Below are positions 2 through 21,408 of a stretch of 21,408 nt of DNA, piece by piece. Made by a program: the position numbers and the translations under genes. The stretch is from a virus: the IMG/VR virus record IMGVR_UViG_3300010400_000056, positions 1 through 21,408 of that record. One strand, given 5' to 3'. The notes below the pieces were generated by a model. The model searched no databases. It saw only the letters and a list, made by a program, of their open reading frames with translations, and was not told the DNA's origin. Each line of letters begins with the position of its first letter. Within the stretch, counting starts at the first letter, position 1.

Positions 2-865
2 CTGTCCAAGGTGACCGGGCGCGACTTCCAGCGCTGGTATGACAGCTTCCGGGCCCCTGTCGTGGAAGGCGGCCCCGAGCGCCCGGCCCGCGCCGCCGCC
101 ATGATGGACATGATCCGGGTGGTGATGAATTACGGCGTGGTCGCCGAGGTGGACCCGCGGTGCGCCACGCTGGCGCTGATCCTGCGGAAGATGCGCTTCG
201 AAGGGTCCAGGCCACGGCAGTCCTACCTGACCGCCGACATGGTCGTGGCGTTCCGCAAGGCGGCGCATACCCACGGCAGGCCCTCCATGGCCCTGGGGAT
301 GGCCCTGCAGTTCGAGACGGCGCTGAGGCAGCGGGATGTCATCGGCGAGTGGGTACCCGCACCAGCGGCCACGCCAGGGCCACTGGCGGGCACGGGCAAG
401 CGATGGACCACGGGGCTGGTGTGGGGAGAGCACATCGACGCGGACCTGGTCCTGCGCAAACCGACGAGCAAGAGCGGCGGGCGGAAGCTTGCGGCGGTCG
501 ACCTGCGGCTCTGTCCGATGGTGATGGACGAGCTCGAGCACGTGCCGGCCGAGCGGCGCGTCGGGCCCGTGATCATCTGCGAGGGGACGCGCCAGCCCTA
601 TACAGCGTGGTGGTACTCGACCCTGTGGCGCAAGATCGCCGACAAGGCCAAGATCCCATCCGGCGTCTGCAACATGGACGCGCGGGCCGGCGCGGTCACC
701 GAGGCGAACGAGGCCGGGGTTGACCTGGAGCACCTGCGCGCGCTCGCCACGCATTCCGACGCGGCGATGACGCAGCGATACAACCGGATGACGATGGAGA
801 AGACCGCCGAGGTGATGCGCCTGCGGGTGGCGCGGCGGGAGATCAAGGGGAAGGACACGGCATGA
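2..865 (+). CDS. int: Tyrosine recombinase / phage integrase, 5' truncated by window edge
   Basis: Site-specific recombinase that would integrate and excise the phage genome. The reading frame is open to the left edge, so the N-terminal arm-binding part is missing. A GTG at 11 is only an internal candidate start; residue numbers below count from it. The catalytic-domain landmarks can be followed: first Arg in ALRQRD (R106), beta-hairpin Lys in TSKSGG (K154), box II Arg in NMDAR (R225), the box II His in ATHSD (H248), and the nucleophile Tyr in QRYNR (Y257), followed by a charged C-terminal helix. The usual His three residues before the box II Arg is Met here. It shares an ATGA overlap with the next gene and faces the late operon. 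The family assignment is firm from motif order; the attachment site cannot be read from this window. Confidence 0.88.
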   Translation: MSKVTGRDFQRWYDSFRAPVVEGGPERPARAAAMMDMIRVVMNYGVVAEVDPRCATLALILRKMRFEGSRPRQSYLTADMVVAFRKAAHTHGRPSMALGMALQFETALRQRDVIGEWVPAPAATPGPLAGTGKRWTTGLVWGEHIDADLVLRKPTSKSGGRKLAAVDLRLCPMVMDELEHVPAERRVGPVIICEGTRQPYTAWWYSTLWRKIADKAKIPSGVCNMDARAGAVTEANEAGVDLEHLRALATHSDAAMTQRYNRMTMEKTAEVMRLRVARREIKGKDTA

Positions 866-8937: not shown

Positions 8938-9503
8938 CAGACCGACCTCGTCTCAAATACGGCGGTCGCCTCGCCGGGATAGGCATTGAACGACGTTCCG
9001 ACGCGACGCATCACGCCGTGCTTGGCGATCGTCTCGAAAAATCGCCGGTGCACTTCGCGCGCGTATTCCACCATCGGCATCTGCGCGTGGATCATCCGGA
9101 AAAAGTTGACCGCGCTCTCGATCCGATTTCGGGGAGACGCCCAGGGAAACCAGACCATGTCGCCGACGATCATGAACGGCGCGAAGGCCGGGTTCGGGTG
9201 CGAATAGAAGCCGAGCACCAGGCCAACCGGCATCACGCCCTTCCGGCTCGGAGCGAACAGCGTCCAGGCGCCGTGATAGTTGACCTCGATCTCGACCTCC
9301 AAGGCGGTCGTGAACGCGGCCGAGTCCATCTCGCCGCCCGCGAACTTCTCCCCCATCGAGGCGAGCGCGCCCTTCTTGTATGCCGCCCAGACATAGCGCA
9401 GGTCCTCGCGCTCGATCGGCCGGAACGAGACCTGGCGCGCGAGCGTCTTCTTCAGCCGCCAGGCCGGGCGCTTTTCGGTGCGGATATCCCGCTCGTGCTT
9501 CAT
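8937..9503 (-). CDS. GNAT-like phage structural-region protein
   Basis: A 188-residue protein. After a basic N-terminus, the order of elements resembles a GNAT acyltransferase fold: FRPIEREDLRYVWA near residues 27-40, beta strands around VGLVLGFY, a longer strand MIVGDMVWFP, a helix RNRIESAVNFFRMIH, a second helix with VHRRFFETIAKHG, and a final strand AVFETRS. I do not see a clean acetyl-CoA-binding R/Q-x-x-G-x-G/A loop, so it may be an inactive, structural version. Phage T7 gp13, next to its internal-protein genes, is thought to have a similar fold, and the position here matches. It overlaps both neighbours (ATGA at its start, TGATG at its end). The fold is a pattern guess. Confidence 0.58.
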   Translation of the reverse strand: MKHERDIRTEKRPAWRLKKTLARQVSFRPIEREDLRYVWAAYKKGALASMGEKFAGGEMDSAAFTTALEVEIEVNYHGAWTLFAPSRKGVMPVGLVLGFYSHPNPAFAPFMIVGDMVWFPWASPRNRIESAVNFFRMIHAQMPMVEYAREVHRRFFETIAKHGVMRRVGTSFNAYPGEATAVFETRSV

Positions 9504-11107
9504 GGCGACGCGACCGTGAACCGCAGGCCGATTTCATTGATGTGGTAGTGGTCCACGTCCTCCACCTGGATGCGCAGCTGGAAATCGCTGCCCTGTCCAG
9601 GCGGAAAGAATTGCTGTTTCAGCAGCCGGTGCTCGAAGCGCGCGCCGAAATAAACATCGCCTCCGAAATAGTGGTCGCCGCCGAAGTGCGCCGCGTCCGA
9701 AACCGCGCTGAGCACGATTTCGACGCTCTCGCTCGACGCTGTCGCGCCAGCCCACTCGAATGTCAGGCGGGCGGTCACTGCAGCGTGCTTGTGATATTTG
9801 ATGTAGCCCTTGACGGAGTTGAACTCAGTGTCGAGCGGAGCCGAGAACAGCCTGGTCAGAAACTCGCTGGCGATGGCGACGGACCCGGCATCGCCTCCTT
9901 CGCCTGACCCCTCCATCCTGTAGAGGTTGCCGGATGCATCGCCCATGATCACGTATTCAAGGCCATCGGACGGGTCGAGCAGAGCCATCACGAAGGTCGG
10001 CTGGAACGCCATGTTGTGGCTGGTCGTCCAGCGCATCCACGGCGAAAGCTCTTTGCCGATCATCGCCGTCTGCGCGACCCAGACTTCAGACTGACCGGAC
10101 GGGAAGCAATAGATGCGGTTCAGGCGAGCGTTGTAGACAATCGTCCAGCCGGTGAAATCCTCGATGTCCGGCTTGACCGGCGAGGTCAGGTCGTCTGCCT
10201 CGGAGTCGCCGAACCGGTCGGTGTCGCGCACGCTCTCGATGCGCCCGGCGCGGCCGTAGACGATGTCGTTCCCGACATAGGCGAGCGACTCGTCGCCGGA
10301 CGCAGCCGACCCGGCATAGAACTCCGTGAATGCGAAGTCTTTTGCGGACGCCCCGGTGAGATTGAACAGCTGTCCGTGCGCAGACGAGATGATCGTTGTG
10401 CCGAACGCTTCGACGAGACCATTGATCGGCTTGAGGTCTGGGGTCAGGAGGAAGAACGGATCTTCTTCGCTCAGCGAGGACGCCGGCCGTTGCGATTCCG
10501 AGATGACCGCATAATTCCCGCGCAGAGATCCTACGATCATGTGCCGCAGCGTCGTGGTCGCGTCCTTCACGTGCGCGAAGATTGCGCGCTCGTTCGAGAC
10601 GGTCAGGTACTTGGCCGAGAAGTTCCCGAATGCGGATCCGGAATCGGTTCCGCTGAGAAACGACACAGATTGAAAGGTCGTTCCGTCCCATTCCTTGACC
10701 ACGTCCGCAAGGTTGATGTCGGTGATCAGAACCTTGTCGTCCAGCGTCCAGTTGTGCGTGCGCCAGTGCCCCCGCAGCTTCGCGGTCGACGTGCAGCTGC
10801 CCACCAGCGTGAAGCCCGTTCCGCCATCCCATGAATAAACCGATCCGCCGGCCTGGATCAGCGTCGACACTGTGCCATCGGACTTGAGCAGAGATGCGCC
10901 GCCGCGGATCTCTGCGCCGTTGGGCGCCGTCCCGATGAGGTCGAAGGGCGGCCGATTGCGCAGCTCGCGACTTTCCAGGTCGAGCAGAAAATTGCCGCCA
11001 TCGGCCGCCTCGCGCGGATCGATCTCGTCCTCGGACGCGCGGGTATGCAGGCCGCCGCCGAACTTGATGACGAGATCGACATCCTTGGGGCCGGCTTTCG
11101 CGACCAT
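9500..11107 (-). CDS. Tail nozzle / tail-tubular-B-like (gp12/gp10-like) stabilisation protein
   Basis: A 535-residue beta-rich protein. It starts with a conserved-looking segment, VIKFGGGLHTRASEDEIDPREAADG split across residues 13-37. It continues through repeated strands with Trp and Gly turns (SVYSWDGGTGF, NRIYCFPSGQ, NLYRMEGSGE) that suggest blade-like repeats of a propeller. It ends with YHINEIGLRFTV. Residues 474-490 carry a triple aromatic-Phe-Gly repeat (HFGGD, YFGGD, YFGA). Podoviral nozzle proteins (T7 gp12, P22 gp10) have this size and lie directly after the adaptor gene, as here. It would close the portal channel after packaging and form the tail tube tip. The ribosome-binding site GAGGTGA overlaps the upstream TGA. 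Confidence 0.74.
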   Translation of the reverse strand: MVAKAGPKDVDLVIKFGGGLHTRASEDEIDPREAADGGNFLLDLESRELRNRPPFDLIGTAPNGAEIRGGASLLKSDGTVSTLIQAGGSVYSWDGGTGFTLVGSCTSTAKLRGHWRTHNWTLDDKVLITDINLADVVKEWDGTTFQSVSFLSGTDSGSAFGNFSAKYLTVSNERAIFAHVKDATTTLRHMIVGSLRGNYAVISESQRPASSLSEEDPFFLLTPDLKPINGLVEAFGTTIISSAHGQLFNLTGASAKDFAFTEFYAGSAASGDESLAYVGNDIVYGRAGRIESVRDTDRFGDSEADDLTSPVKPDIEDFTGWTIVYNARLNRIYCFPSGQSEVWVAQTAMIGKELSPWMRWTTSHNMAFQPTFVMALLDPSDGLEYVIMGDASGNLYRMEGSGEGGDAGSVAIASEFLTRLFSAPLDTEFNSVKGYIKYHKHAAVTARLTFEWAGATASSESVEIVLSAVSDAAHFGGDHYFGGDVYFGARFEHRLLKQQFFPPGQGSDFQLRIQVEDVDHYHINEIGLRFTVASP

Positions 11108-11110
11108 TCG

Positions 11111-11776
11111 TCACCTCGGCAGGTATGACGAGCGCATCTGCCTCATCGTCATCAGGCGGGCGGCCTGTCCGATCATCGCCCGGAACAAGTCACCGTCGAA
11201 CTCGTTGCGCCGCTCGCGCTTCCACAGCTGCACCCATGCCGGTACCATTGCGCGGAACACCGCATCGGAGAAAGGCATCGTGTCCGCGGCAGCGTCGAGC
11301 ACCAGGTCTTTGTCGTACTGATAGGTATAGACGCGGCCGGCTTCGTCGGCTGTCGGAGTTCGGTCAAGGTGGAGCTTGCTGGCGGCCCGCGGCCGGATCG
11401 AGCCGTAGTGCGGCAGGCCCGTATCATCCTGCTCCGGATCAGCGATCAGCATCGCGTTGTAGCCGCCGGGATAGTCGAACAGATACTGGTTGTTCGTCTT
11501 GTCGATCAGCGGATAGCGAAGCCGCACGAGGTCGGAGGCGAGATCGTAGGCGCGTGTCCCGGCCACCAGCGTGATGGTGCTTTCATCCTGCCCCTGCGGC
11601 AGCGCCACGCTCGATGAGGAATAGAGTTCGCCGATCCCCTCATTGATGACCTGCACGGCGACATCGATCGAGACCTGGCGCGCGCTGTCCGTCAGCGACG
11701 TGAGCGTCCCGGCGTCGCCGGCGATCAGGCTGACGCGCTTGAGAATTTCGTTGACACCGTTTAGAAGGGTTTTCAC
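11111..11776 (-). CDS. Head-tail adaptor / tail-tubular-A-like (gp11-like) protein
   Basis: A 221-residue protein beginning at GTG (11776), with AAGGA about 11 bases upstream and an in-frame TGA seven codons before it, so no earlier start is available in this frame. The order of features fits the podoviral gatekeeper/adaptor family. An N-terminal helix (MKTLLNGVNEILKRVS) is followed by a second long helix (RQVSIDVAVQVINEGIGELYS), then beta strands (STITLVAGTRAYDLAS, a motif typical of this group), a YPGGYN turn and a C-terminal helix pair (FRAMVPAWVQLWKRER). It would dock below the portal and join the nozzle. It is followed by the nozzle gene three bases on. The homing endonuclease gene lies just upstream on the opposite strand. 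Confidence 0.75.
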   Translation of the reverse strand: MKTLLNGVNEILKRVSLIAGDAGTLTSLTDSARQVSIDVAVQVINEGIGELYSSSSVALPQGQDESTITLVAGTRAYDLASDLVRLRYPLIDKTNNQYLFDYPGGYNAMLIADPEQDDTGLPHYGSIRPRAASKLHLDRTPTADEAGRVYTYQYDKDLVLDAAADTMPFSDAVFRAMVPAWVQLWKRERRNEFDGDLFRAMIGQAARLMTMRQMRSSYLPR

Positions 11777-11806
11777 GACACATGCATTCCTTCAAGAGGA
11801 TCGCAA

Positions 11807-12448
11807 ATGTTTACCGTTTACCGGCTTACGCTCTCCGCCCCCGGCAAACCCGATAGGCACTATGTCGGATGCACCAAGCGCTTCCGCGCCCGCGAAAATG
11901 AACATCGGTCGATGCTAAAGAAGGGCGCTCACTTCAACAGGGATTTGCAGGCTTCATATGACGCAGAGACCGCAATTTCGATAATGGTTCTTGCAGAAGC
12001 AAACTCACACCAAGTTGGCGTAGATCTTGAGTCTCAGTGGACTAATATTCTACGCGCGAAAGGGGATATAGTTCTCAATCGCAGGCTTGACGCAGGATCG
12101 AATAGAGGTCTGAGGCATTCTGATCGAACGAGGGCAGCAATTACCAGCGCTCTATCGGGCCGTAACACGCGGTCACCTGAGGCGATTGCCTCGACAAACG
12201 AAAAACTGAAAGGCCGATCGAAACCTGAGCAGGTCATCGAGGCGTCTCAGCGAGGCCTTGCCATCTGGCGCTCTGACCCAAAAAACGTGGAATCCGTAGC
12301 GCGCCAGCAAGCGCGGCTGTCTGACGAACAGGTCAGAGCCATCAGGGCGTCATCGCTGACCTACGCGCGTCTATCGGGACTCTTTGGCGTCGCCCCATCC
12401 GTGATATGTCGCATCCGTCAAATAAAGTCCTACCGCTGGGTCTCCTGA
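11807..12448 (+). CDS. GIY-YIG homing endonuclease with NUMOD3-like and HTH DNA-binding segments
   Basis: A 213-residue free-standing homing endonuclease, the only plus-strand gene inside the late operon. The GIY-YIG core is seen as VYRLT (residues 4-8), HYVGCT (18-23), R26/R28 and EHR (32-34), and the metal-binding Glu probably E75 in DLESQW. A NUMOD3-like segment follows (GLRHSDRTRAAITSALSGR, 101-119). The C-terminus (LSDEQVRAIRAS, then LFGVAPSVICRIRQIKSYRW) is the helix-turn-helix end often found on phage HNH and GIY-YIG enzymes. Ribosome-binding site AAGAGGA lies 7 bases before the ATG. It is lower in GC than its neighbours: 27 G/C by hand count in bases 12001-12060. Its last 19 bases overlap the convergent neighbour. 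It would cut allelic DNA lacking the gene and spread by repair. Confidence 0.88.
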   Translation: MFTVYRLTLSAPGKPDRHYVGCTKRFRARENEHRSMLKKGAHFNRDLQASYDAETAISIMVLAEANSHQVGVDLESQWTNILRAKGDIVLNRRLDAGSNRGLRHSDRTRAAITSALSGRNTRSPEAIASTNEKLKGRSKPEQVIEASQRGLAIWRSDPKNVESVARQQARLSDEQVRAIRASSLTYARLSGLFGVAPSVICRIRQIKSYRWVS

Positions 12449-12897
12449 GGGGGATTGCGCTTCGCCTCGATCTTGGCAATCAGGTCCGGCATGCGGTCCC
12501 GCCGGCCCATGGGGATGCCCTCGGCCTTGCAGACGCGGCGCAGGGCGTTGATGTCCATGGTGGCGAGTGTCGGCGCGGCGGGCTTCTGCGCCTCAGGCGC
12601 GCGGGTCTGCTGCGCCCACTGCCGGGCGAGGTCCGCGATCGCGTCGGCCTCCACGCCGTTCGTCTCGGGCACCGCCGGCCCGGCCGAGCCTTTGCCGCCG
12701 CCGTTCATCGCGCCGAGCGGGCGCGGCGGAATGCGGATGCGGGTCAGCCCGCGGCGGCGCAGGATGTCCCGCATCAGGATCGCGGGCATCTCGTCGGAGA
12801 TGTCGCTGACCTTGTTCTCCCGCGCGAACAGGAAAAGCTCGCGACGCGTCGCCTTCTCCAGGTTGTCGCGCGGGTCTTCGATCTTGTTGAGGATCAT
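12430..12897 (-). CDS. Phage protein with two SAP/HeH-like helical segments
   Basis: A 155-residue protein with two similar small helical modules. The first is near residues 17-52 (ATRRELFLFARENKV, then MPAILMRDILRRRGL). The second is near residues 113-147 (MDINALRRVCKAEGI, then RDRMPDLIAKIEAKR). A Gly/Pro/Ala-rich linker separates them. Each has the helix-loop-helix look of SAP or HeH motifs, which bind DNA in many proteins and also appear in phage head proteins next to the capsid gene. It lies directly after the major capsid gene, so a head-completion or DNA-contact role is possible. The gene downstream in the operon is reached only after passing the inserted homing endonuclease. No precise family is recognised. 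Confidence 0.7.
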   Translation of the reverse strand: MILNKIEDPRDNLEKATRRELFLFARENKVSDISDEMPAILMRDILRRRGLTRIRIPPRPLGAMNGGGKGSAGPAVPETNGVEADAIADLARQWAQQTRAPEAQKPAAPTLATMDINALRRVCKAEGIPMGRRDRMPDLIAKIEAKRNPPQETQR

Positions 12898-12952: not shown

Positions 12953-14038
12953 TCAGTTCGTCAGGTTGGTCGCGCCGACGCGGATGGCGCGGCTCCAGTT
13001 GCTGTTGAGCACCGCCCCGGCGTAGAACGCCTTCCACGCGATCGTGGCGATCTCATTGAACGGATCGGACGTTCCGCCCGATCCGCGGTCCTTGAAGATC
13101 AGCTCCCACCCGCCGGTGTTGTCGCCGGCCCGGTAGACGCCATCCGTGTGCCGCTTGCCGAGGCCCACGGAACCGAAGGCGTCCTTGCCGTACACCAGAA
13201 TGGTGTAGAGATCGACGAGGCCGGACGTAGCTCGCAGGTCCGAAGTGGACTCCGAGTTGCCAGTGTTCTCGTCGATCGAGGCGTCCTCGCTCTCGACGAA
13301 GCGGAGGCCCTTGCCGGCCTTGCCGTAGTAGCCGATTTCGCCCACCACGGTGGCGGTCTGGCCGGCGTAGGTCTCGACCGACTTGAAGCCGGTGAGGCCA
13401 GCAACGTCGACCGACACGTCGGGGTGGAGGATCGCCCAGAAGCTCGGCAGGATCGGCGCGGTGCCGATGTTGGTCGAGCCGGTGGTCATCGGCATGAACG
13501 TCCGCGCCGAGTTGCGCGACAGCTCGTTGATCACGCGGTCGAGCACGCCAGTGGTGATCGCGCCATCGACGAGGCCGTCTGACGCCACATTCAGTGCGTA
13601 GCGCTTCGTCGCGTTGTCCTCGCCGACGTTGCGCTGCAGCTGGTTGAGGCTGCGGCCGGCCGACTCGCCCAGCACATCCACCAACTCGTCGGTGGTGCGG
13701 TTCGGGTTGTAGAGGTCGACCTCCTCGTTCACGATGTAGAACTGACCGTACTTGGCCACGGTCGCGGTCACATCGGTGAAGGTCGGCGTGTCGGAATCGC
13801 GGCCCTGCATGTAGCTGGCCGTGCCGGTGAGCTCGGTGAGTGCCGTGGTCGACGGCGTCTCCTGCTCGATACGCCGCCACTTGATCGTGGAAGTGCCCTG
13901 CTGCTTGTTGATCATCCCGGCCTGCGTGCCCATGAAGTACGGGCAGTGCTGCTGGGCGCGACGCAGAAAGGTCTGCTCGAAGACGACATTGACCGGCTTC
14001 TGCAGTTCGACGTCGGTCGCGGTGATAGTCTGTGCCAT
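12953..14038 (-). CDS. Major capsid protein, N4-gp56 family
   Basis: A 361-residue major capsid protein. Segments characteristic of the N4 gp56 family (TIGR04387) are clear: an early NKQQGTSTIKWRR region (residues 44-56), VAKYGQFYIVNEEVDLY (94-110), DVLGESAGRSLNQLQRN (121-137), a central FMPMTTGSTN and HPDVSVDV part, and the C-terminal block GKRHTDGVYRAGDN, WELIFKDRGSGG and the ending AIATIAWKAFYAGAVLN-like helix. The fold would be HK97-like, forming the icosahedral shell. The scaffold-like gene precedes it, as usual. Ribosome-binding site AAAGGA lies about 10 bases before the ATG. A stable hairpin follows the stop. The length is slightly below many relatives but nothing seems missing. Confidence 0.92.
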   Translation of the reverse strand: MAQTITATDVELQKPVNVVFEQTFLRRAQQHCPYFMGTQAGMINKQQGTSTIKWRRIEQETPSTTALTELTGTASYMQGRDSDTPTFTDVTATVAKYGQFYIVNEEVDLYNPNRTTDELVDVLGESAGRSLNQLQRNVGEDNATKRYALNVASDGLVDGAITTGVLDRVINELSRNSARTFMPMTTGSTNIGTAPILPSFWAILHPDVSVDVAGLTGFKSVETYAGQTATVVGEIGYYGKAGKGLRFVESEDASIDENTGNSESTSDLRATSGLVDLYTILVYGKDAFGSVGLGKRHTDGVYRAGDNTGGWELIFKDRGSGGTSDPFNEIATIAWKAFYAGAVLNSNWSRAIRVGATNLTN

Positions 14039-14712: not shown

Positions 14713-14937
14713 TCATCCGCCTGATGGCGGAATGGCGTTCTGCAGGAAGTCGAGCCAAGCGCGCTGCTGGTTCGCGCGGCCGCTCCTGTGGACCCAGAGA
14801 TGCACCTGGTCGGCGCCAGGCGTCGCGCTGTTCGCCTTGAACTCGGCCGGCTCGGGGGCCGGCACGGACCGGAGCAATTCGGGAAAGGCCGGGTGCTCGC
14901 GCATCTTCTCGAGCAGGTCGCGCAGGGATTCGCTCAT
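14713..14937 (-). CDS. Small conserved-looking protein between portal and scaffold
   Basis: A 74-residue protein starting MSESLRDLLEKMREHPAF. The frame runs open further upstream inside the portal gene, but the ATG at 14937 overlaps the portal stop (ATGA) and marks the real start. An N-terminal amphipathic helix with the ending FPELLRSV is followed by a linker, then HLWVHRSGRANQQRAWLDFL, which looks like a second helix. It has no membrane segment. Small proteins at this location exist in several podoviruses with N4-gp56-type capsids. I do not recognise a defined family and assign no function beyond head-gene context. Confidence 0.72.
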   Translation of the reverse strand: MSESLRDLLEKMREHPAFPELLRSVPAPEPAEFKANSATPGADQVHLWVHRSGRANQQRAWLDFLQNAIPPSGG

Positions 14938-16847
14938 TGTCCGATGACCTCGGGAATGCCGGCCACGGCGGCGGCGGGCGCGGCCGGACCGGCGATTGCC
15001 AGCGGCGGCGGCGGGGCGCTGACGCCCATGATGGCGTCGACATCGGTCCAGCCGCCCTCGCGCAGCACCTGCGCCTTTGCCTCGCGCAGCTTGATATCGG
15101 GCGGAACCTGGAACTGCACGCCCATCTGGTCCATCTGCAGCGCCAGGGCGAGGCTTTGCAGCCGGGCCTGCTTCTTCTGCGCCTCTTCGGCCGGGCCTCC
15201 CGAGCCGAACCACTCGAAGGTCGCGCGCTCCGGGAGCTGGTCGCGCGTCACCTCGACATAGCCGCCATACGCTTCGATGAAGAACGAGACGGTGTCCCGG
15301 CTGCCGATGGCATCGCGGGCCATGGGATAGGCCATATCCAGCCACCGCGTCATCGGCCCCTGCCCGCACTGGCGGACATAGTCGACCGTGCGCACGGCGC
15401 CGCGCTGCAGCTCGGCGTCCTTCGCGAATGCGGTGGTGTGGCTGACCGTCTGCGCGCCGAGCCGCGCCGGCAGCACACCGGTGAGTTCGGCATAGAGATT
15501 GATCGCCGCGGCCATGGCGGCCGAGAGCGACGAGGGGTCGCCGCCGATCTCGGTGTGGGCCTTGATGGCACCGGGATCGCTCGATGCCCATGTCGCCCCG
15601 GGATAAATCTCCGGTCCGCCGGACTGCGCAAAGGTAAGATCTGTTTTGTCATAGCCGACCGGCGGGTGGTTCTTCAGCATCGCCGAGTCGAGCAGTCGAT
15701 TGAGGGCGTCGGTCGCCATCATCTGAACCGGCCGGCCCTTCATCAGCGGCGAGGTCGGATAGGTGTCGTCGGCGCCCTCATAGTGATAGGGGAACAGCAG
15801 GTAGGACGAGACCGGCGACTTGCGGAACCGGCAGCGCACCACGCCGTGGCTGGCATTGCCGCCCTTGTCCTTTCCGCCCATCACGATGGTCACGACCGCG
15901 CCGGGCAGGATCATGCTGCGCGTGGTCTTGCGTGGCACAACAAGGTCGCCTTCGATCTCGAGCAGCGTCACGAAGCCATTATCGTCCTCGACCACATCCT
16001 TGCAATTCTTCGGCATCCATCCGCCGTCTTCGGCGTCCGGGTCGCTCGACCCGCGGTTCGCCGCGAGCTTCAGGTTCTCCAGCCGGATGTGATCGACCGC
16101 GATGTGCGTGGGTTCCAGCATCTGGATCGAATGCATGGAGGCTGGGGTGTCGTCGAGGTAGAGATTCTTGATCGAGCACGGCAGCAGCACCGGAAAGCGC
16201 TGCGTCTCACGCCGAACGCCACGGCCGGTCTTGAAATAGAGGCTTTTGGCCTGCATCCGAGCGCGACCAATGCCCATGCCGTATTTGAGCGACTCGGCAT
16301 TGATGCGGTCCAGCCGCGTGAAGAAATCCTCGTTCCGGTCGCCAAACTGCTGGCGGAAGATGTGCGTCAGGTAACCCTCGACCAGCTTGTCGGCGTTGTC
16401 CTGGTTGATCTGGCTCGGGACCTCGGCCTCGTCGCCAAGGATCATCGCTTGGAAGTCGGCCTTGGCCAGGTATTCGTCGGTCATCTCCGCGTGCGCGCGG
16501 AACCACGAGCCGCTGTCCGGGAACATCATGCGGCGCGCGTCGGCGGTGAGCACCTCCAGCGCCTGCGCCTGCAGCGGCAACTCGACTTCGGCCATCCAGG
16601 CTTTCTTCGTGTCGAGGACGCGCGAGCCGTTCTTGATGATGTATTTGTATGTGACATCCGGCTCCATCGCAATCTGCCGGTCGATCTCCTTCCACGCCCT
16701 CTCGCGGTCGCTGCGGGCCTTTTTCCGCCGCTCCCATTCCTCGATCCCCCACTCGGCAATGTGGTCCCAGTCGCGCGCGTCGAAACGGCGCTTTGGCGAC
16801 TCCTTGCCGTCGCGCGGGTCGATCTCCGTGGCGTCGGACTCAGCCAT
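14934..16847 (-). CDS. Portal protein
   Basis: A 637-residue protein in the position and size range of podoviral portals (about 540-760 residues). The N-terminal half is helical and highly charged, with WKEIDRQIAMEPDVTYKYI, then a Trp-rich region. The middle has strands and the segment PVSSYLLFPYHYEGADDTYP, followed by MMATDALNRLLDSAMLKNHPPV, a long-helix region that resembles the portal core where the subunits form the ring. The last 40 residues are Ala/Pro-rich and low in complexity, perhaps an exposed tail. As the ring at one head vertex, it would take DNA from the terminase and later hold the adaptor. The ATG is inside the end of the preceding gene (8-base overlap). The assignment is from size, order and composition; no short signature motif proves it. 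Confidence 0.82.
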   Translation of the reverse strand: MAESDATEIDPRDGKESPKRRFDARDWDHIAEWGIEEWERRKKARSDRERAWKEIDRQIAMEPDVTYKYIIKNGSRVLDTKKAWMAEVELPLQAQALEVLTADARRMMFPDSGSWFRAHAEMTDEYLAKADFQAMILGDEAEVPSQINQDNADKLVEGYLTHIFRQQFGDRNEDFFTRLDRINAESLKYGMGIGRARMQAKSLYFKTGRGVRRETQRFPVLLPCSIKNLYLDDTPASMHSIQMLEPTHIAVDHIRLENLKLAANRGSSDPDAEDGGWMPKNCKDVVEDDNGFVTLLEIEGDLVVPRKTTRSMILPGAVVTIVMGGKDKGGNASHGVVRCRFRKSPVSSYLLFPYHYEGADDTYPTSPLMKGRPVQMMATDALNRLLDSAMLKNHPPVGYDKTDLTFAQSGGPEIYPGATWASSDPGAIKAHTEIGGDPSSLSAAMAAAINLYAELTGVLPARLGAQTVSHTTAFAKDAELQRGAVRTVDYVRQCGQGPMTRWLDMAYPMARDAIGSRDTVSFFIEAYGGYVEVTRDQLPERATFEWFGSGGPAEEAQKKQARLQSLALALQMDQMGVQFQVPPDIKLREAKAQVLREGGWTDVDAIMGVSAPPPPLAIAGPAAPAAAVAGIPEVIGQ

Positions 16848-17425: not shown

Positions 17426-18859
17426 TCAGATCCTCGTGCTTGCAATCGGCGCCATCGGCGCGTGCGAAACGTGCGGCCGGTTGATGATGGTGAGCGGGAC
17501 GGCGTATCTCTTCATCATCACTGCGTAGAACGTGGCCTTAAGAATGTCGTCGCGACGCGCAACGATCAGGCCGTCCTTGCGGTGGTAGCTGCGCTTTTCC
17601 TCGAACCAGTCCGACAGATGCCGGCAGACCTTGAAGCGGCCGGTGCACATGCGCTCGAGGATCTCGTCGACGATCGGCTCGACCGGCTGCGGGCCGCCCT
17701 TCTCGTCCGTCCCCGGCACCTTCGGGTAGCGCGCCGACTTGGCCAGCATGTTCACGCGGTGCTCGCGGTAGGCATCTGCCAGGATGCGCCCGCCGGTCTT
17801 CTCTCGGTTCATGCCGTCATGCGGCCACGCCACCGGCACCATCGGATTGGCCTTGTTGAACCAGGCCGCGTGGTAGGGCGGCAGCTCGTTGGCCTTGCGG
17901 TAGCAGTCGATGACGTAGATCACGTCCTGGTCGCGGTCCCAGGCGATCTCGACGCCGGCCGCCGGGTGGTCGATGCCGAAGTCGCAGCCCTTGATGCGCG
18001 CCCAGTGGTCCGGGATCTTGAACGGGTCGCACGAGATGACATCGTCGGCCACCGGGAAGACGGCGCCCTCGCCGAGCATCGGAATGCCCTTGGTGCGGGC
18101 GTCGCGCTCGTGCGTGCGGTAGGCGGTCGACAGCCGGTCCTTGTCCTCCTGGCTCAGGTGCGGCGCGTCATCCCAGGATGCGCCGCGGAGATAGATGCCC
18201 GGCCCGCCGTCCTGGAAGTGCTTCACGAGATCTGTCACGCCCGACAGCGGGGTGAACGTCACCAGGACGATGCCTTTCGAGGTCAGAATGCGGGTCTGCG
18301 ACTCAGAATAGATCATGTAGTCGTCCGGCTCCTCGTCATCCCAGACGACGTGCGGCGCCGTGCCCTGCCATTTCCGCCAACCCTGCTCGTAGGTCTTCAG
18401 GTTGCAGACCGAGACGCCACCCGATCGGTGGCGGACCCGAAAGGAGTCGATCACATTCTTGACGCCGGCTTGTCGCGTCTGCGGCTGCCCGATGATGCGC
18501 GCCTTCGGCACCCAGCCAGTGCCCATGTTCTCGCCGAGATCGCCGAGCAACTCGATCTGCACGATGTCGCGTGAGGTCTCGTTCGTCGGGCTTCCGGTCC
18601 AGACCAGTGTCGGGTGCGGGAAGCGCCGGCCTTCCCACCATTCCGGGTAATCGCCGGTCAGATGGTAGGAGACTTCGGCCGCTGCGCATTGCGTCTTGCC
18701 GACCCGATTTGCCGCCATCAGCATTCGTTCGGGGTTCGTCGCGCCCGCGTCGTGAAACTCCTTCTGCCACGGATACGGCTTGTAGCCGCGGATTTTCTGC
18801 GCGCGGATCTGCGCATTGAACTGCGCAATAAGCTGCGCGGCCTTCTGCAGGTCGGACAT
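17426..18859 (-). CDS. terL: Terminase large subunit (packaging ATPase and nuclease)
   Basis: A 477-residue DNA-packaging motor. The N-terminal ATPase shows the P-loop variant AANRVGKT (residues 49-56), an adenine-binding-like PYPWQKEF (29-36), Walker B with catalytic acids VVWDDE (171-176) and the coupling motif TFTPLSG (201-207). The C-terminal nuclease, of RNase H type, has acidic positions in GCDFGID (291-297), VIDCY (316-320) and RRDDIL (435-440). It would cut concatemers and pump DNA through the portal. A TTG two codons earlier is possible, but the ATG at 18859 overlaps the preceding TGA as TGATG and is the better start. It is followed by small phage genes, then portal. The headful or cos type cannot be judged from this. 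Confidence 0.92.
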   Translation of the reverse strand: MSDLQKAAQLIAQFNAQIRAQKIRGYKPYPWQKEFHDAGATNPERMLMAANRVGKTQCAAAEVSYHLTGDYPEWWEGRRFPHPTLVWTGSPTNETSRDIVQIELLGDLGENMGTGWVPKARIIGQPQTRQAGVKNVIDSFRVRHRSGGVSVCNLKTYEQGWRKWQGTAPHVVWDDEEPDDYMIYSESQTRILTSKGIVLVTFTPLSGVTDLVKHFQDGGPGIYLRGASWDDAPHLSQEDKDRLSTAYRTHERDARTKGIPMLGEGAVFPVADDVISCDPFKIPDHWARIKGCDFGIDHPAAGVEIAWDRDQDVIYVIDCYRKANELPPYHAAWFNKANPMVPVAWPHDGMNREKTGGRILADAYREHRVNMLAKSARYPKVPGTDEKGGPQPVEPIVDEILERMCTGRFKVCRHLSDWFEEKRSYHRKDGLIVARRDDILKATFYAVMMKRYAVPLTIINRPHVSHAPMAPIASTRI

Positions 18860-19497
18860 CAATCACGCCGGAAGGCGAAGCTCAGGATGTTGTCGCGGCC
18901 GGCGCGCGTTTCGAAGTCGTCGCGCTCGAGCAGCCGGAAGCCGTGCATCGCCATCCAGCGCGCCAGCCCTTCCTCGGTGAAATAGTAGAGGTGCTCGCCC
19001 GGCCGGTAGTGCTTCGAGGCGCGGATTGCCGTCAGATCGCCGAAAATCGGGACGGAAAGGAACGCGAACGCACTATCGGGCATCCGCTCGAAGTAGCGCT
19101 CGGGTTCCTCGATGTGCTCCAGCACGTCCCAGAAGGTAAAACCCTGGAACAGATAGAACTTATCCGACCAGCGATGCCTGGCATGAAGCCATTCGACAGC
19201 CTTCGGATTGACGTCGAAACCGAACGTGTGCGGCCGACTCTTAATGAACTCGCCGGACCCGATGCCGATGTCGAGGACGCCACCGTCGCAGACGACATGC
19301 CGGTTGACGAGATCGACCCGCCCGGCATTGATGGCGCGCGCGATCTCCGTGCCCTCGTACCCCACGTATTTGTCGAAATAGGGCGCATCGTAGGGCACGC
19401 GGTGCGCCATGTCCGCCTGCCAGGCGACGCCGTTCTCCAGGCAGAGCGTCAGGTCGCCGTCGCGCACGGCCGGGAATGTCTCGATGAACCTGTCCAT
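18859..19497 (-). CDS. Class I SAM-dependent methyltransferase (Methyltransf_23-like)
   Basis: A 212-residue methyltransferase. The SAM-binding motif I is VLDIGIGSGEF (residues 74-84), followed by FGFDVNPKA (92-100) for motif II and FWDVLEHIEEP (122-132), the post-motif typical of Methyltransf_23/UbiE-like enzymes. The late HLYYFTEEGLARWMAMHGF (169-187) is also typical of that group. Before motif I is a long N-terminal region containing FDKYVGYEGTEIARAINAGR, which could contact the acceptor. The substrate is unknown. Enzymes like this act on sugars or lipids in surface glycan pathways as well as on small molecules. It sits between a methyltransferase gene and terL, coupled by TGATG to terL and three bases from the upstream gene, so it shares the late transcript. 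Confidence 0.85.
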   Translation of the reverse strand: MDRFIETFPAVRDGDLTLCLENGVAWQADMAHRVPYDAPYFDKYVGYEGTEIARAINAGRVDLVNRHVVCDGGVLDIGIGSGEFIKSRPHTFGFDVNPKAVEWLHARHRWSDKFYLFQGFTFWDVLEHIEEPERYFERMPDSAFAFLSVPIFGDLTAIRASKHYRPGEHLYYFTEEGLARWMAMHGFRLLERDDFETRAGRDNILSFAFRRD

Positions 19498-19500
19498 GCG

Positions 19501-20106
19501 TCACGCGGTTGCGCGCCAGAGCGCGAAGGAGTCGCCGAAGGTCGTCACGGTGCCGCGGTTGCGGAGAGTGTTGACGAGCCCCCACACCGCGGGCTGCAGC
19601 GGCCAGTATTCGTGGAACAGCACATGGCCGCAGCGCTCTACGGCCTTGAAGTCGATCTCGGTGTCGACCGCGTGATTGCCGTCGACATAGGCCGCGTCGA
19701 AGTCCAGATCGGCGATGATCTTGTTCCGCCCTGCATTGCTCTCGACGTCGACGAAACGGATGTTGTTGATGCCGCAGAGGGCGGCGAAATCTCGCTTGTC
19801 GTCATCCGGGAAGATGTCGAATGAGACCACCTCGTCGAAGTGTCGGGCGAGGACGATCGCGGTCATGCCCTTGCACGTTCCGATCTCGATGCATCGCTTG
19901 CCCCTGAAGCCATGCTCGCGCGCGAACCGATCGATCCCGAGCAGCGCCGTCGAGCGGCGGAAGACGTTGATGCCGTGGCGCCGATAGATCTTGTAGAGGT
20001 CGGTGTTTCCCCAGTTCCGCCACCACTGCTCCATGTGCTCCGTCAATTCGATCTGATATATACGATCCGGTTCGGTCCGACCGAACGGCACCATAAGACT
20101 GATCAT
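19501..20106 (-). CDS. Class I SAM-dependent methyltransferase (Methyltransf_24-like), paralogue of the upstream fused domain
   Basis: A 201-residue methyltransferase. Motif I is CIEIGTCKGMTAIVLAR (residues 72-88), with the acidic residue in VVSFDIF (93-99), then FDAAYVDGNHAV (136-147) and CGHVLFHEYW (159-168). The DGxH and VLFHD/E motifs are typical of Methyltransf_24. It is clearly related to the C-terminal half of the upstream fusion: both share FRRSxAL, EIGTxxG, LAR, NNI, DFDxA, DGxH, DFxxVxRCGxVLFH and a final FALWR. The gene appears to be a stand-alone copy with its own N-terminal extension (residues 1-50). The substrate is unknown; a glycan or nucleotide-sugar is a reasonable guess from the fused GT29-like partner. 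ATGA overlap with the fusion gene shows coupled translation. Confidence 0.85.
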   Translation of the reverse strand: MISLMVPFGRTEPDRIYQIELTEHMEQWWRNWGNTDLYKIYRRHGINVFRRSTALLGIDRFAREHGFRGKRCIEIGTCKGMTAIVLARHFDEVVSFDIFPDDDKRDFAALCGINNIRFVDVESNAGRNKIIADLDFDAAYVDGNHAVDTEIDFKAVERCGHVLFHEYWPLQPAVWGLVNTLRNRGTVTTFGDSFALWRATA

Positions 20107-21332
20107 GCACGGCCTCTCCAGAGCGCAAAAATCCCCATCACCTCAACCTCGCTGCTCGGCAGCGTCTTGACGAACTCGGTCACGCCGTTCGGGTGATCCG
20201 GGTCAAAATCGTGGAACAGCACCGTCCCGCAACGCTTCACCATGTCGAAGTCGAGCCCGACCTGCGGCATCCGGTGATCGCCATCGATGAAGGCGAAATC
20301 GAAGTCGATGCCCGCGAGCAGTGCGGCCTTTTCCTCGTCCGAGCGGACCAGGTGCAGGTCGATATTGTTGGCGCCCATGCCGGCCCAGAAGCCGCGCCGG
20401 CTGTGTTTCGGATACATGCGCTCGGCCTGGCCGTTGCGCAGGTCGATCGTGGTCACGCGCGATGCGAAGCGCGCCAGGAAGGCAGTCGACACGCCGCGGA
20501 ACGTGCCGATTTCGACGATGTGCCGGCGACCGCCGCGCAGGATGAACTCGATATGCTCCGCGCCATTCGCCACCTTCAGCGCACTGCGGCGGAAGATGGT
20601 TTCCCCTCCGATCTCGACGGCGCGCGCCATGAACTCATCGATCAAGACCGGAAGCGGGGCGTCACCGTTCTGCATGATCCAGTTGAGCCGCTTGTCGAAG
20701 GTGATGGGGTGTCGGGGCGCGTGATCGCGCAACCATTGCAGTTCGCGCTCGGGGGCGTGCGCGATCGGGTCGTCCGCATTCCGGAACACCCACCGCTCGT
20801 TGACGTTGTGGATGCCAGAGCGGAAGAAGTCGAAGCCGGTCAGGTAGAAGTGCGCCGGGTCGAACGACAGGATGTCGAGCACCGCGGCGAAGCCGGTCGT
20901 CGGAACGTGGTTGCCGAGCGTCTCGAACTTCTGCAGGAACGCGGCGGTGTCCGGGATGTAGGTGTCGCAGAACCACCAGTTCCGCCGGCGCTCATAGATG
21001 TAGCGGAAGTCGACGCCCTTCATGCGGTTGTTGAGCTCGTGCCAGCGCGACTGGATCGCATGCGCGTCTGGGCACTTGCACATGCACAACGTCACGCCGT
21101 GGCGGCGCAGGTCTTCCACGCTCTTGCGGATCGAGTCGCCGAAGAACGAGTAGAAGACGTCGGTGCGGGCGCCGGTCTCGGGCGAGAGCTTATAGTTGGA
21201 AATGCGGACGACAACGTCGAACGAGTCGACGAATCCCTGCTCGTTATCGAGGCACCCCGGCCCGCTCCCGACGATCGCCACCCGCTTGCCCGCGAAGCGC
21301 GCTCGCGCCGCCGATCTGTCGATGAAATTCAC
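20103..21332 (-). CDS. Fusion of a GT29 (sialyltransferase-like) domain and a SAM methyltransferase
   Basis: Two-domain protein of 409 residues from a GTG at 21332 (VNFIDRS). The frame stays open to a GTG at 21392 and beyond, so the start is uncertain. The N-terminal half has sialylmotif-L-like features: VAIVGSGPG (18-26), GFVDSFDVVVRISNY (33-47), TDVFYSFF (57-64). It also has a motif-S-like VPTTGFAAVLDIL (143-155) with YLTGFDFF, and HNVNE (175-179) near motif VS. The C-terminal half (about 230-409) is a Methyltransf_24-like domain with EIGTFRG (274-280), FIDGDH (348-353) and VLFHDF (371-376). The protein would transfer a sugar, perhaps an acidic one, from a nucleotide donor and methylate a related substrate. 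No membrane segment is seen. Substrates are unknown. Two other methyltransferases follow. Confidence 0.82.
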   Translation of the reverse strand: MNFIDRSAARARFAGKRVAIVGSGPGCLDNEQGFVDSFDVVVRISNYKLSPETGARTDVFYSFFGDSIRKSVEDLRRHGVTLCMCKCPDAHAIQSRWHELNNRMKGVDFRYIYERRRNWWFCDTYIPDTAAFLQKFETLGNHVPTTGFAAVLDILSFDPAHFYLTGFDFFRSGIHNVNERWVFRNADDPIAHAPERELQWLRDHAPRHPITFDKRLNWIMQNGDAPLPVLIDEFMARAVEIGGETIFRRSALKVANGAEHIEFILRGGRRHIVEIGTFRGVSTAFLARFASRVTTIDLRNGQAERMYPKHSRRGFWAGMGANNIDLHLVRSDEEKAALLAGIDFDFAFIDGDHRMPQVGLDFDMVKRCGTVLFHDFDPDHPNGVTEFVKTLPSSEVEVMGIFALWRGRA

Positions 21333-21408
21333 CAACGGCCGCGACGAGCTCGGCGTCGGTGCAGATATCGATGACGTGGCGCGATGAGGCACGGTGCAGG
21401 ATTTTCCC
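21244..21408 (-). CDS. Possible C-terminal fragment of an upstream gene, cut by window edge
   Basis: In the frame offset from the glycosyltransferase, the minus strand reads GKILHRASSR, then HVIDICTDAELVAAVGEFHR, and stops at TAA (21244-21246). From 21408 to about 21343 this frame has protein-like composition, and about 18 of 22 codons end in G or C by hand count, better than the other frames here. It would overlap the GT29 gene start by about 89 bases, which is long for this phage, so the last 20 or so codons may be a chance extension or the fusion gene may begin inside it. The function is not recognisable from such a short piece. Confidence 0.35.
   Translation of the reverse strand, partial: GKILHRASSRHVIDICTDAELVAAVGEFHRQIGGASALRGQAGGDRRERAGVPR

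Follow-up and report, generated by a model that had tools for sequence, protein, structure and literature searches.

The window analysed here is an IMG/VR record, complete at 21,408 bases, whose minus strand carries an SU10-like virion operon with terminase, portal, capsid, SAP-like and adaptor genes; in the interval between the last two, an open reading frame runs the other way (Table 1). From position 1141 to the right end this is the sole plus-strand gene called and, given two plus-strand ORFs at the left edge (11-865 and 862-1140), the opposite-strand block around it comes to ~20.2 kb. Its ATG lies 30 bp from the adaptor start (11776, minus strand), its 3' end overlaps the SAP-like gene by 19 bp, and its composition is foreign and not adapted to the phage: GC is 0.548 against 0.652 ± 0.034 in the 20 other listed genes, and GC3 is 0.570 against 0.851 ± 0.048 (z = -5.9), each value being lower than in any other of the 21 genes. 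The first-pass annotation, made from the letters alone, had described a GIY-YIG homing endonuclease gene inserted antisense within the virion operon, alone on its strand, placed between these two genes with the same overlap, poorer in GC than its neighbours and equipped with a strong ribosome-binding site of its own. That description holds throughout: the last point is accounted for by a GAGGA motif, the identity of the protein by its PHROG 314 match, an I-TevI profile and the core residues that it keeps. Elsewhere in the window, the left-edge ORF at 11-865 (plus strand) is tyrosine-integrase-like, just under the Pfam cut-off, and may point to a temperate phage; three methyltransferase-like genes stand in a row at 18859-21392, adjoining the terminase gene.

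Table 1. Features of the window around the SAP-like/adaptor junction, in order of position.
Feature	Position	Strand	Basis
SU10-type adaptor gene	11111..11776	-	Pfam PF24175, E 1.3e-7
Adaptor start codon GTG, at the position of codon 2 in most clade relatives	11774..11776	-	Alignment; upstream in-frame TGA
Inferred insert, ~677 bp: 30-bp leader, ORF and 5 bp after the stop	11777..12453		Empty-junction comparison; ends good to a few bases
GAAGGA, Shine-Dalgarno-like, before the adaptor gene, insert-supplied	11788..11793	-	Sequence; use putative
Shine-Dalgarno-like GAGGA ahead of the endonuclease ATG, at 6 nt	11796..11800	+	Sequence
Free-standing GIY-YIG homing endonuclease gene, 213 aa, ATG start	11807..12448	+	Pfam, PHROG, predicted model, I-TevI profile, alignment
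GIY-YIG catalytic domain, ~residues 1-91	11807..12079	+	Three-protein alignment; profile against I-TevI chains
Predicted helix-turn-helix-like C-terminal DNA-binding tail, ~residues 171-209	12317..12433	+	Alignment with L162 HTH stretch
End of the SAP-like gene, 7 codons (PPQETQR) plus stop, insert-derived	12430..12453	-	Comparison with relatives
SAP-like gene, 155 aa, in the capsid-adaptor interval	12430..12897	-	Homologues in relatives
Major capsid gene	12953..14038	-	phrog_1357, E 9.6e-35
SU10-like portal gene	14934-16847	-	
Terminase gene	17426-18862	-	

On its sequence, the gene is a free-standing GIY-YIG homing endonuclease gene whose product is predicted to cleave DNA. By Pfam alone the assignment is weak (E = 0.015; 16 bits, below the gathering cut-off of 22.6), whereas the related proteins that occupy the same junction in two other loci, L081 and L162, pass that cut-off at 39.1 and 40.6 bits; the cut-off is a matter of scoring and no biological trait. 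PHROG 314, 'homing endonuclease', is matched along the whole window protein (E 3.2e-7), and a profile built from the three junction endonucleases finds I-TevI chains in the PDB sequence set at 1e-18, over the catalytic domain; it is through this profile that the predicted GIY-YIG class becomes firm. Seven columns that align with I-TevI (Y5, Y19, R29, H33, H42, E75 and N91) are invariant across the three proteins, and Y5, Y19, H33, H42 and N91 we take to have a catalytic role in the GIY-YIG core. The position altered in 1mk0, going by the PDB title, corresponds to E75 in the alignment, and the residue at which the two I-TevI chains differ corresponds to R29. The predicted model of the window protein has a mean pLDDT of 73, with block means of 84-90 over the first 60 residues, and the top three Foldseek matches are all to the I-TevI catalytic domain (prob 0.95-0.97, E-values 0.33-0.45; the best with prob 0.97, TM normalised to the target of 0.65 and an E-value of 0.33). 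With E-values above 0.3 these matches support a GIY-YIG fold, with I-TevI as the closest predicted fold, and do not prove it. Towards the C-terminus, the NUMOD3 and HTH matches of the L162 protein align with the second half of the window protein; the HTH matches in L162 and L081 are weak in Pfam, and the window protein itself returned neither a NUMOD3 nor an HTH Pfam match.

How does the junction look without the gene? Capsid and adaptor searches of viral contigs supplied the relatives, and an alignment search of genome contigs with the capsid, where a single-sequence capsid search had found nothing, added one more, L120; a single-sequence search of the viral contigs with the endonuclease likewise found nothing. 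L120, with the capsid, SAP-like and adaptor genes of the group, belongs to a contig binned as Nitrospiraceae and may thus hint at a host for the wider clade. Once identical stretches had been merged and three loci with an unmatched adaptor N-terminus dropped (L038, L113 and L146), 88 distinct adaptor starts remained, of which 87, the window included, have an upstream capsid gene (L030 does not). No endonuclease is present at the SAP-adaptor junction in 84 of these 87 loci, and in 83 of the 84 the preceding gene ends no more than 40 nt from the codon aligned to residue 1 of the window adaptor, the one beyond being L111 (+85); the automatically picked upstream ORF was in the wrong frame for L019, whose SAP-like ORF ends at +28, and probably for L159. 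Most commonly the SAP-like gene overlaps the adaptor gene by ~16-20 nt: its protein has a C-terminus of the type ..NGENAA or ..NGQNAA before the stop, and the adaptor start that it overlaps is, for example, ATGGCGAAAACGCTGCTTGA. The presence of the gene is thus sporadic, with empty alleles in relatives, as for homing endonucleases, and the comparison with insert-less relatives that had been proposed from the first reading does find the empty site. L040 carries, between capsid and SAP-like genes (L040:3378-4815), a 333-aa protein that matches glycosyltransferase family 9, together with an other-strand ORF of 125 aa, its SAP-adaptor junction itself being empty.

Setting the window against these empty alleles delimits the insert. 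The left flank of the insert matches relatives until AAGCGCAAT and the right flank match restarts at GTGAAAACC, while relative L008 runs unbroken through the empty junction (CGCAATGGCCAAAACG); on the minus strand, the window follows its relatives to GAGGCGAAGCGCAAT (GAGGCGGAACGCAATGGCC in L008), diverges, and matches again from GTGAAAACCCTTCTAAAC. No empty relative closer than ~70% identity in the adaptor and 79% in the capsid was found, so these ends are placed across distant sequences. Direct or inverted repeats flanking the window insert were not found, the longest direct match being 5 bp, which is the chance expectation; a 9-bp direct match in L162, ATAAATGGC, has a chance of 0.07 and we do not claim it as a repeat.

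Both neighbours have been remade at their ends. The SAP-like protein matches its relatives up to ..KIEAKRN, after which PPQETQR and a stop, encoded on the strand opposite the endonuclease 3' end, take the place of the usual ending; its C-terminus is therefore a product of the insertion, as the first-pass annotation had supposed. The change on the other side escaped that first reading, as did the repeated occupation of the junction described below. The adaptor has lost the ATG or GTG at which it normally starts, and the following codon, GCG or GCC in most clade relatives, is GTG here. This GTG must start adaptor translation, because its frame is closed by a TGA six codons upstream and offers no start codon in the interval, and the GAAGGA that sits 11 nt before it, within the insert, probably serves as the adaptor's Shine-Dalgarno sequence. 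The insertion may also be old. Among clade mates taken from the capsid tree, 24 of 25 (the exception is L183) have a stop in the SAP frame inside the adaptor 5' end, at 0-8 codons, whereas in the window that stop is gone and the frame runs 44 codons to the next; this suggests that enough time has passed since the insertion for the constraint of the overlap to relax, though it does not date the event.

Two distant relatives have their own occupants of this junction. L081 has an antisense endonuclease of 226 aa (L081:2303-2983) and L162 a sense one of 216 aa (L162:3931-4581), both between SAP-like and adaptor genes. In L081 the SAP-like protein ends early, at 113 aa, and the adaptor begins ATGAAAACT, with AGGA before its ATG; in L162 the endonuclease ATG directly follows the SAP-like stop, the endonuclease stop overlaps the adaptor start, and AAGGAAG lies in the endonuclease 3' end at that overlap. 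The L081 protein recurs at 100% in a second metagenome assembly (L194, the same contig as L082), and the window insertion is known from a single assembly. At the end of the L162 contig (L162:5206-5304), an inverted fragment near-identical to its own endonuclease from about residue 35 onward overlaps the adaptor 3' end; this contig end is likely chimeric, and L162 is for that reason to be read with some caution.

The three endonucleases are each other's best matches (window-L162 80.9 bits, window-L081 80.5, L081-L162 135), ahead of whatever 50,697 phage records contain, where their best matches reach 66, 82 and 80 bits. In a tree of 22 sequences, mostly chosen from best hits and not at random, 10 of the 19 inner branches are open, and a single clade for the three is neither shown nor rejected by the AU test (p = 0.40); the window branch is the longest, at 2.01 against 0.82 and 0.25. 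On the capsid tree (84 rows of the 85 capsids gathered for the 88 loci) the three carriers fall in three separate places, each near empty relatives, the nearest by capsid identity being L019 for the window (79%), L086 for L081 (69%) and L164 for L162 (85%); DNA relatives of L164 were sought among named phages and none was found. At least three changes are required, which cannot distinguish gain from loss. Since L162 has the opposite orientation, however, it cannot descend from the same insertion event as the window or L081 unless an inversion took place. All told, it looks as though one endonuclease family has repeatedly entered one junction, in either orientation.

A further locus deserves mention as a lead only. 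L028 has, exactly at the adaptor start (L028:7585-7625, approximately), a 41-bp insertion that is absent from its near relative L017, to which the flanks are 89% and 80% identical. One frame of it reads IFTVYAVF, to be compared with MFTVY in the window endonuclease; in a shuffle test the resemblance arose in 218 of 200,000 trials (chance 0.001), with three motifs chosen after the fact. It is possible that this stretch is the scar of a lost endonuclease.

Very probably, then, a free-standing GIY-YIG homing endonuclease gene entered the SAP-like/adaptor junction of a tailed phage in antisense orientation. The predicted enzyme would act on relatives that lack the endonuclease, cutting at, or close to, the conserved 5' end of their adaptor gene; repair from a carrier would copy the endonuclease gene into the cut genome, and the insert, in splitting the recognition site, would protect the carrier. 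It would also bring the adaptor its new Shine-Dalgarno sequence and leave it a substitute start codon; with these start signals inside the insert, imprecise loss would harm a probably essential virion gene, and retention would so be helped. More tentatively, and with rather less than even confidence, we could go further and posit a single lineage with a fixed target at the start of SU10-type adaptor genes, entering repeatedly in either orientation and each time taking over the adaptor start signals, so that its loss then harms the virion; L028 would hold the scar of a fourth visit.

Perhaps, on the other hand, the junction is merely tolerated, being among the few spots at which a phage can survive an insert in its crowded virion operon, whilst the enzymes cut elsewhere. 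According to PMC2988022, the free-standing endonucleases of T4 cleave at distances of hundreds to thousands of bp from their own insertions, and by that example the junction may be a tolerated place and not a cut site. Members of the same endonuclease family do sit at other junctions within the virion-gene blocks of other phages (U9 and Segz_1), and homing endonuclease genes are described as clustering near structural and terminase genes (PMC10448857), and near essential genes. Tolerance alone, however, does not predict that the three endonucleases should be mutual best matches. Nor does it sit easily with a whole-record search, in which the three-protein profile was run against the records of 94 relatives (1.74 Mb; 9 are capsid-only records, and the other 85 are the set of 87 with distinct adaptor starts minus L069 and L120): the only intact relatives were those of L081 and L162, both at the SAP-adaptor junction. 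Two of two has a chance of ~0.0015, a rough figure that assumes one gene junction per ~800 bp and leaves out the window because the window chose the hypothesis. We consider tolerance without targeting somewhat unlikely. The record of L087 (G046:C1:13116-13382, minus; 34494-34652, plus) has two weak matches to the endonuclease C-terminal half, with internal stops, which could be decayed endonucleases or unrelated HTH proteins.

Whether the window gene still works is a separate matter. Expression would presumably use a promoter other than that of the late operon, and a scan of 9000-11900 found no sigma-70-like promoter on the plus strand upstream of the ORF, phage-specific promoters being invisible to such a scan; the sole sigma-70-like plus-strand match in 11500-12600 lies inside the ORF, at 11958-11985. 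With no promoter found, the gene may be hardly expressed, as has been argued for T4 segD. We could thus imagine a silent passenger, intact in sequence yet no longer expressed or active, and kept for the adaptor start signals that it contains. Its antisense position to the late operon, its poor Pfam score, its long branch and the lost SAP-frame stop with the age that this suggests are all in keeping with such decay. Against it, the frame is open at full length, the catalytic residues and the C-terminal tail are kept, and the composition has not adapted to the phage, and on balance we find a silent passenger unlikely.

An assembly chimera is very improbable: the single assembly and the sharp GC shift at the insert would fit one, but unrelated assemblies hold related endonucleases where the breakpoints fall, the L081 insert is present in two metagenomes, and both neighbours keep open frames that have acquired new start and stop signals. 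Introns encode many GIY-YIG endonucleases, but a group I intron has a negligible chance here and was rejected, as no Rfam match at the gathering threshold appears in the window, L081 or L162, and just ~35 bp of an intergenic, antisense insert lie outside the ORF. Neither tRNA nor Rfam features were found. The gene thus lies outside any intron or intein, as Seg-type genes do, in an intergenic insert that is nearly all ORF.

The closest parallel comes from T4, where segD, likewise a GIY-YIG gene that stands free, lies between genes 23 (capsid) and 24 and runs antisense to both, without a detected promoter (PMC2988022). The window gene shares with it the class, the free-standing state, the antisense position among virion genes near the capsid gene and the lack of a detected promoter; by comparison of descriptions (the same source), it differs in its SAP-like/adaptor junction and in an insert that overlaps and remakes both neighbours. 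I-TevI, whose catalytic domain (PDB 1ln0 and 1mk0) has the same core residues and predicted fold, is intron-encoded, unlike the free-standing window endonuclease. Among named phages, the nearest PHROG 314 proteins belong to Pseudomonas phage vB_Pae_U9 (94% coverage) and Xanthomonas phage MK21 (84%); they are 28-32% identical and lie at other junctions, in the same direction as their flanking genes, that of U9 within the virion-gene block, and the related Segz_1 gene is upstream of a major tail gene. In vB_Pae_U9 (L043:3962-5387), two annotated endonuclease genes of opposite strand flank one small virion-block gene. The ICP1 tape-measure locus, which takes different HNH endonucleases about 30% identical (PMC10448857), offers another case of different endonucleases at a single locus; there they reside in introns, whereas here they lie between genes and in both orientations. 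A search by title and abstract on antisense, same-site, both-orientation and start-codon insertions and on Shine-Dalgarno supply, with subscription journals largely outside it, returned nothing that describes this junction.

What we describe is an element of an ordinary, known kind, well supported and with T4 segD as its direct precedent; free-standing endonuclease genes were already known in virion operons, including that one antisense to a T4 capsid gene. What is uncommon here is that the ends of both neighbours have been remade, and that one junction is used by related endonucleases in both orientations. Because nature provides alleles with and without the insert, in either orientation and across a wide phage group, two questions become directly testable: do free-standing endonucleases insert at, or close to, the site that they themselves cut? 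And could the takeover of a neighbour's translation-start signals retain endonucleases, much as the essential-gene promoters embedded in some T4 endonuclease genes are said to favour retention (PMC2988022)?
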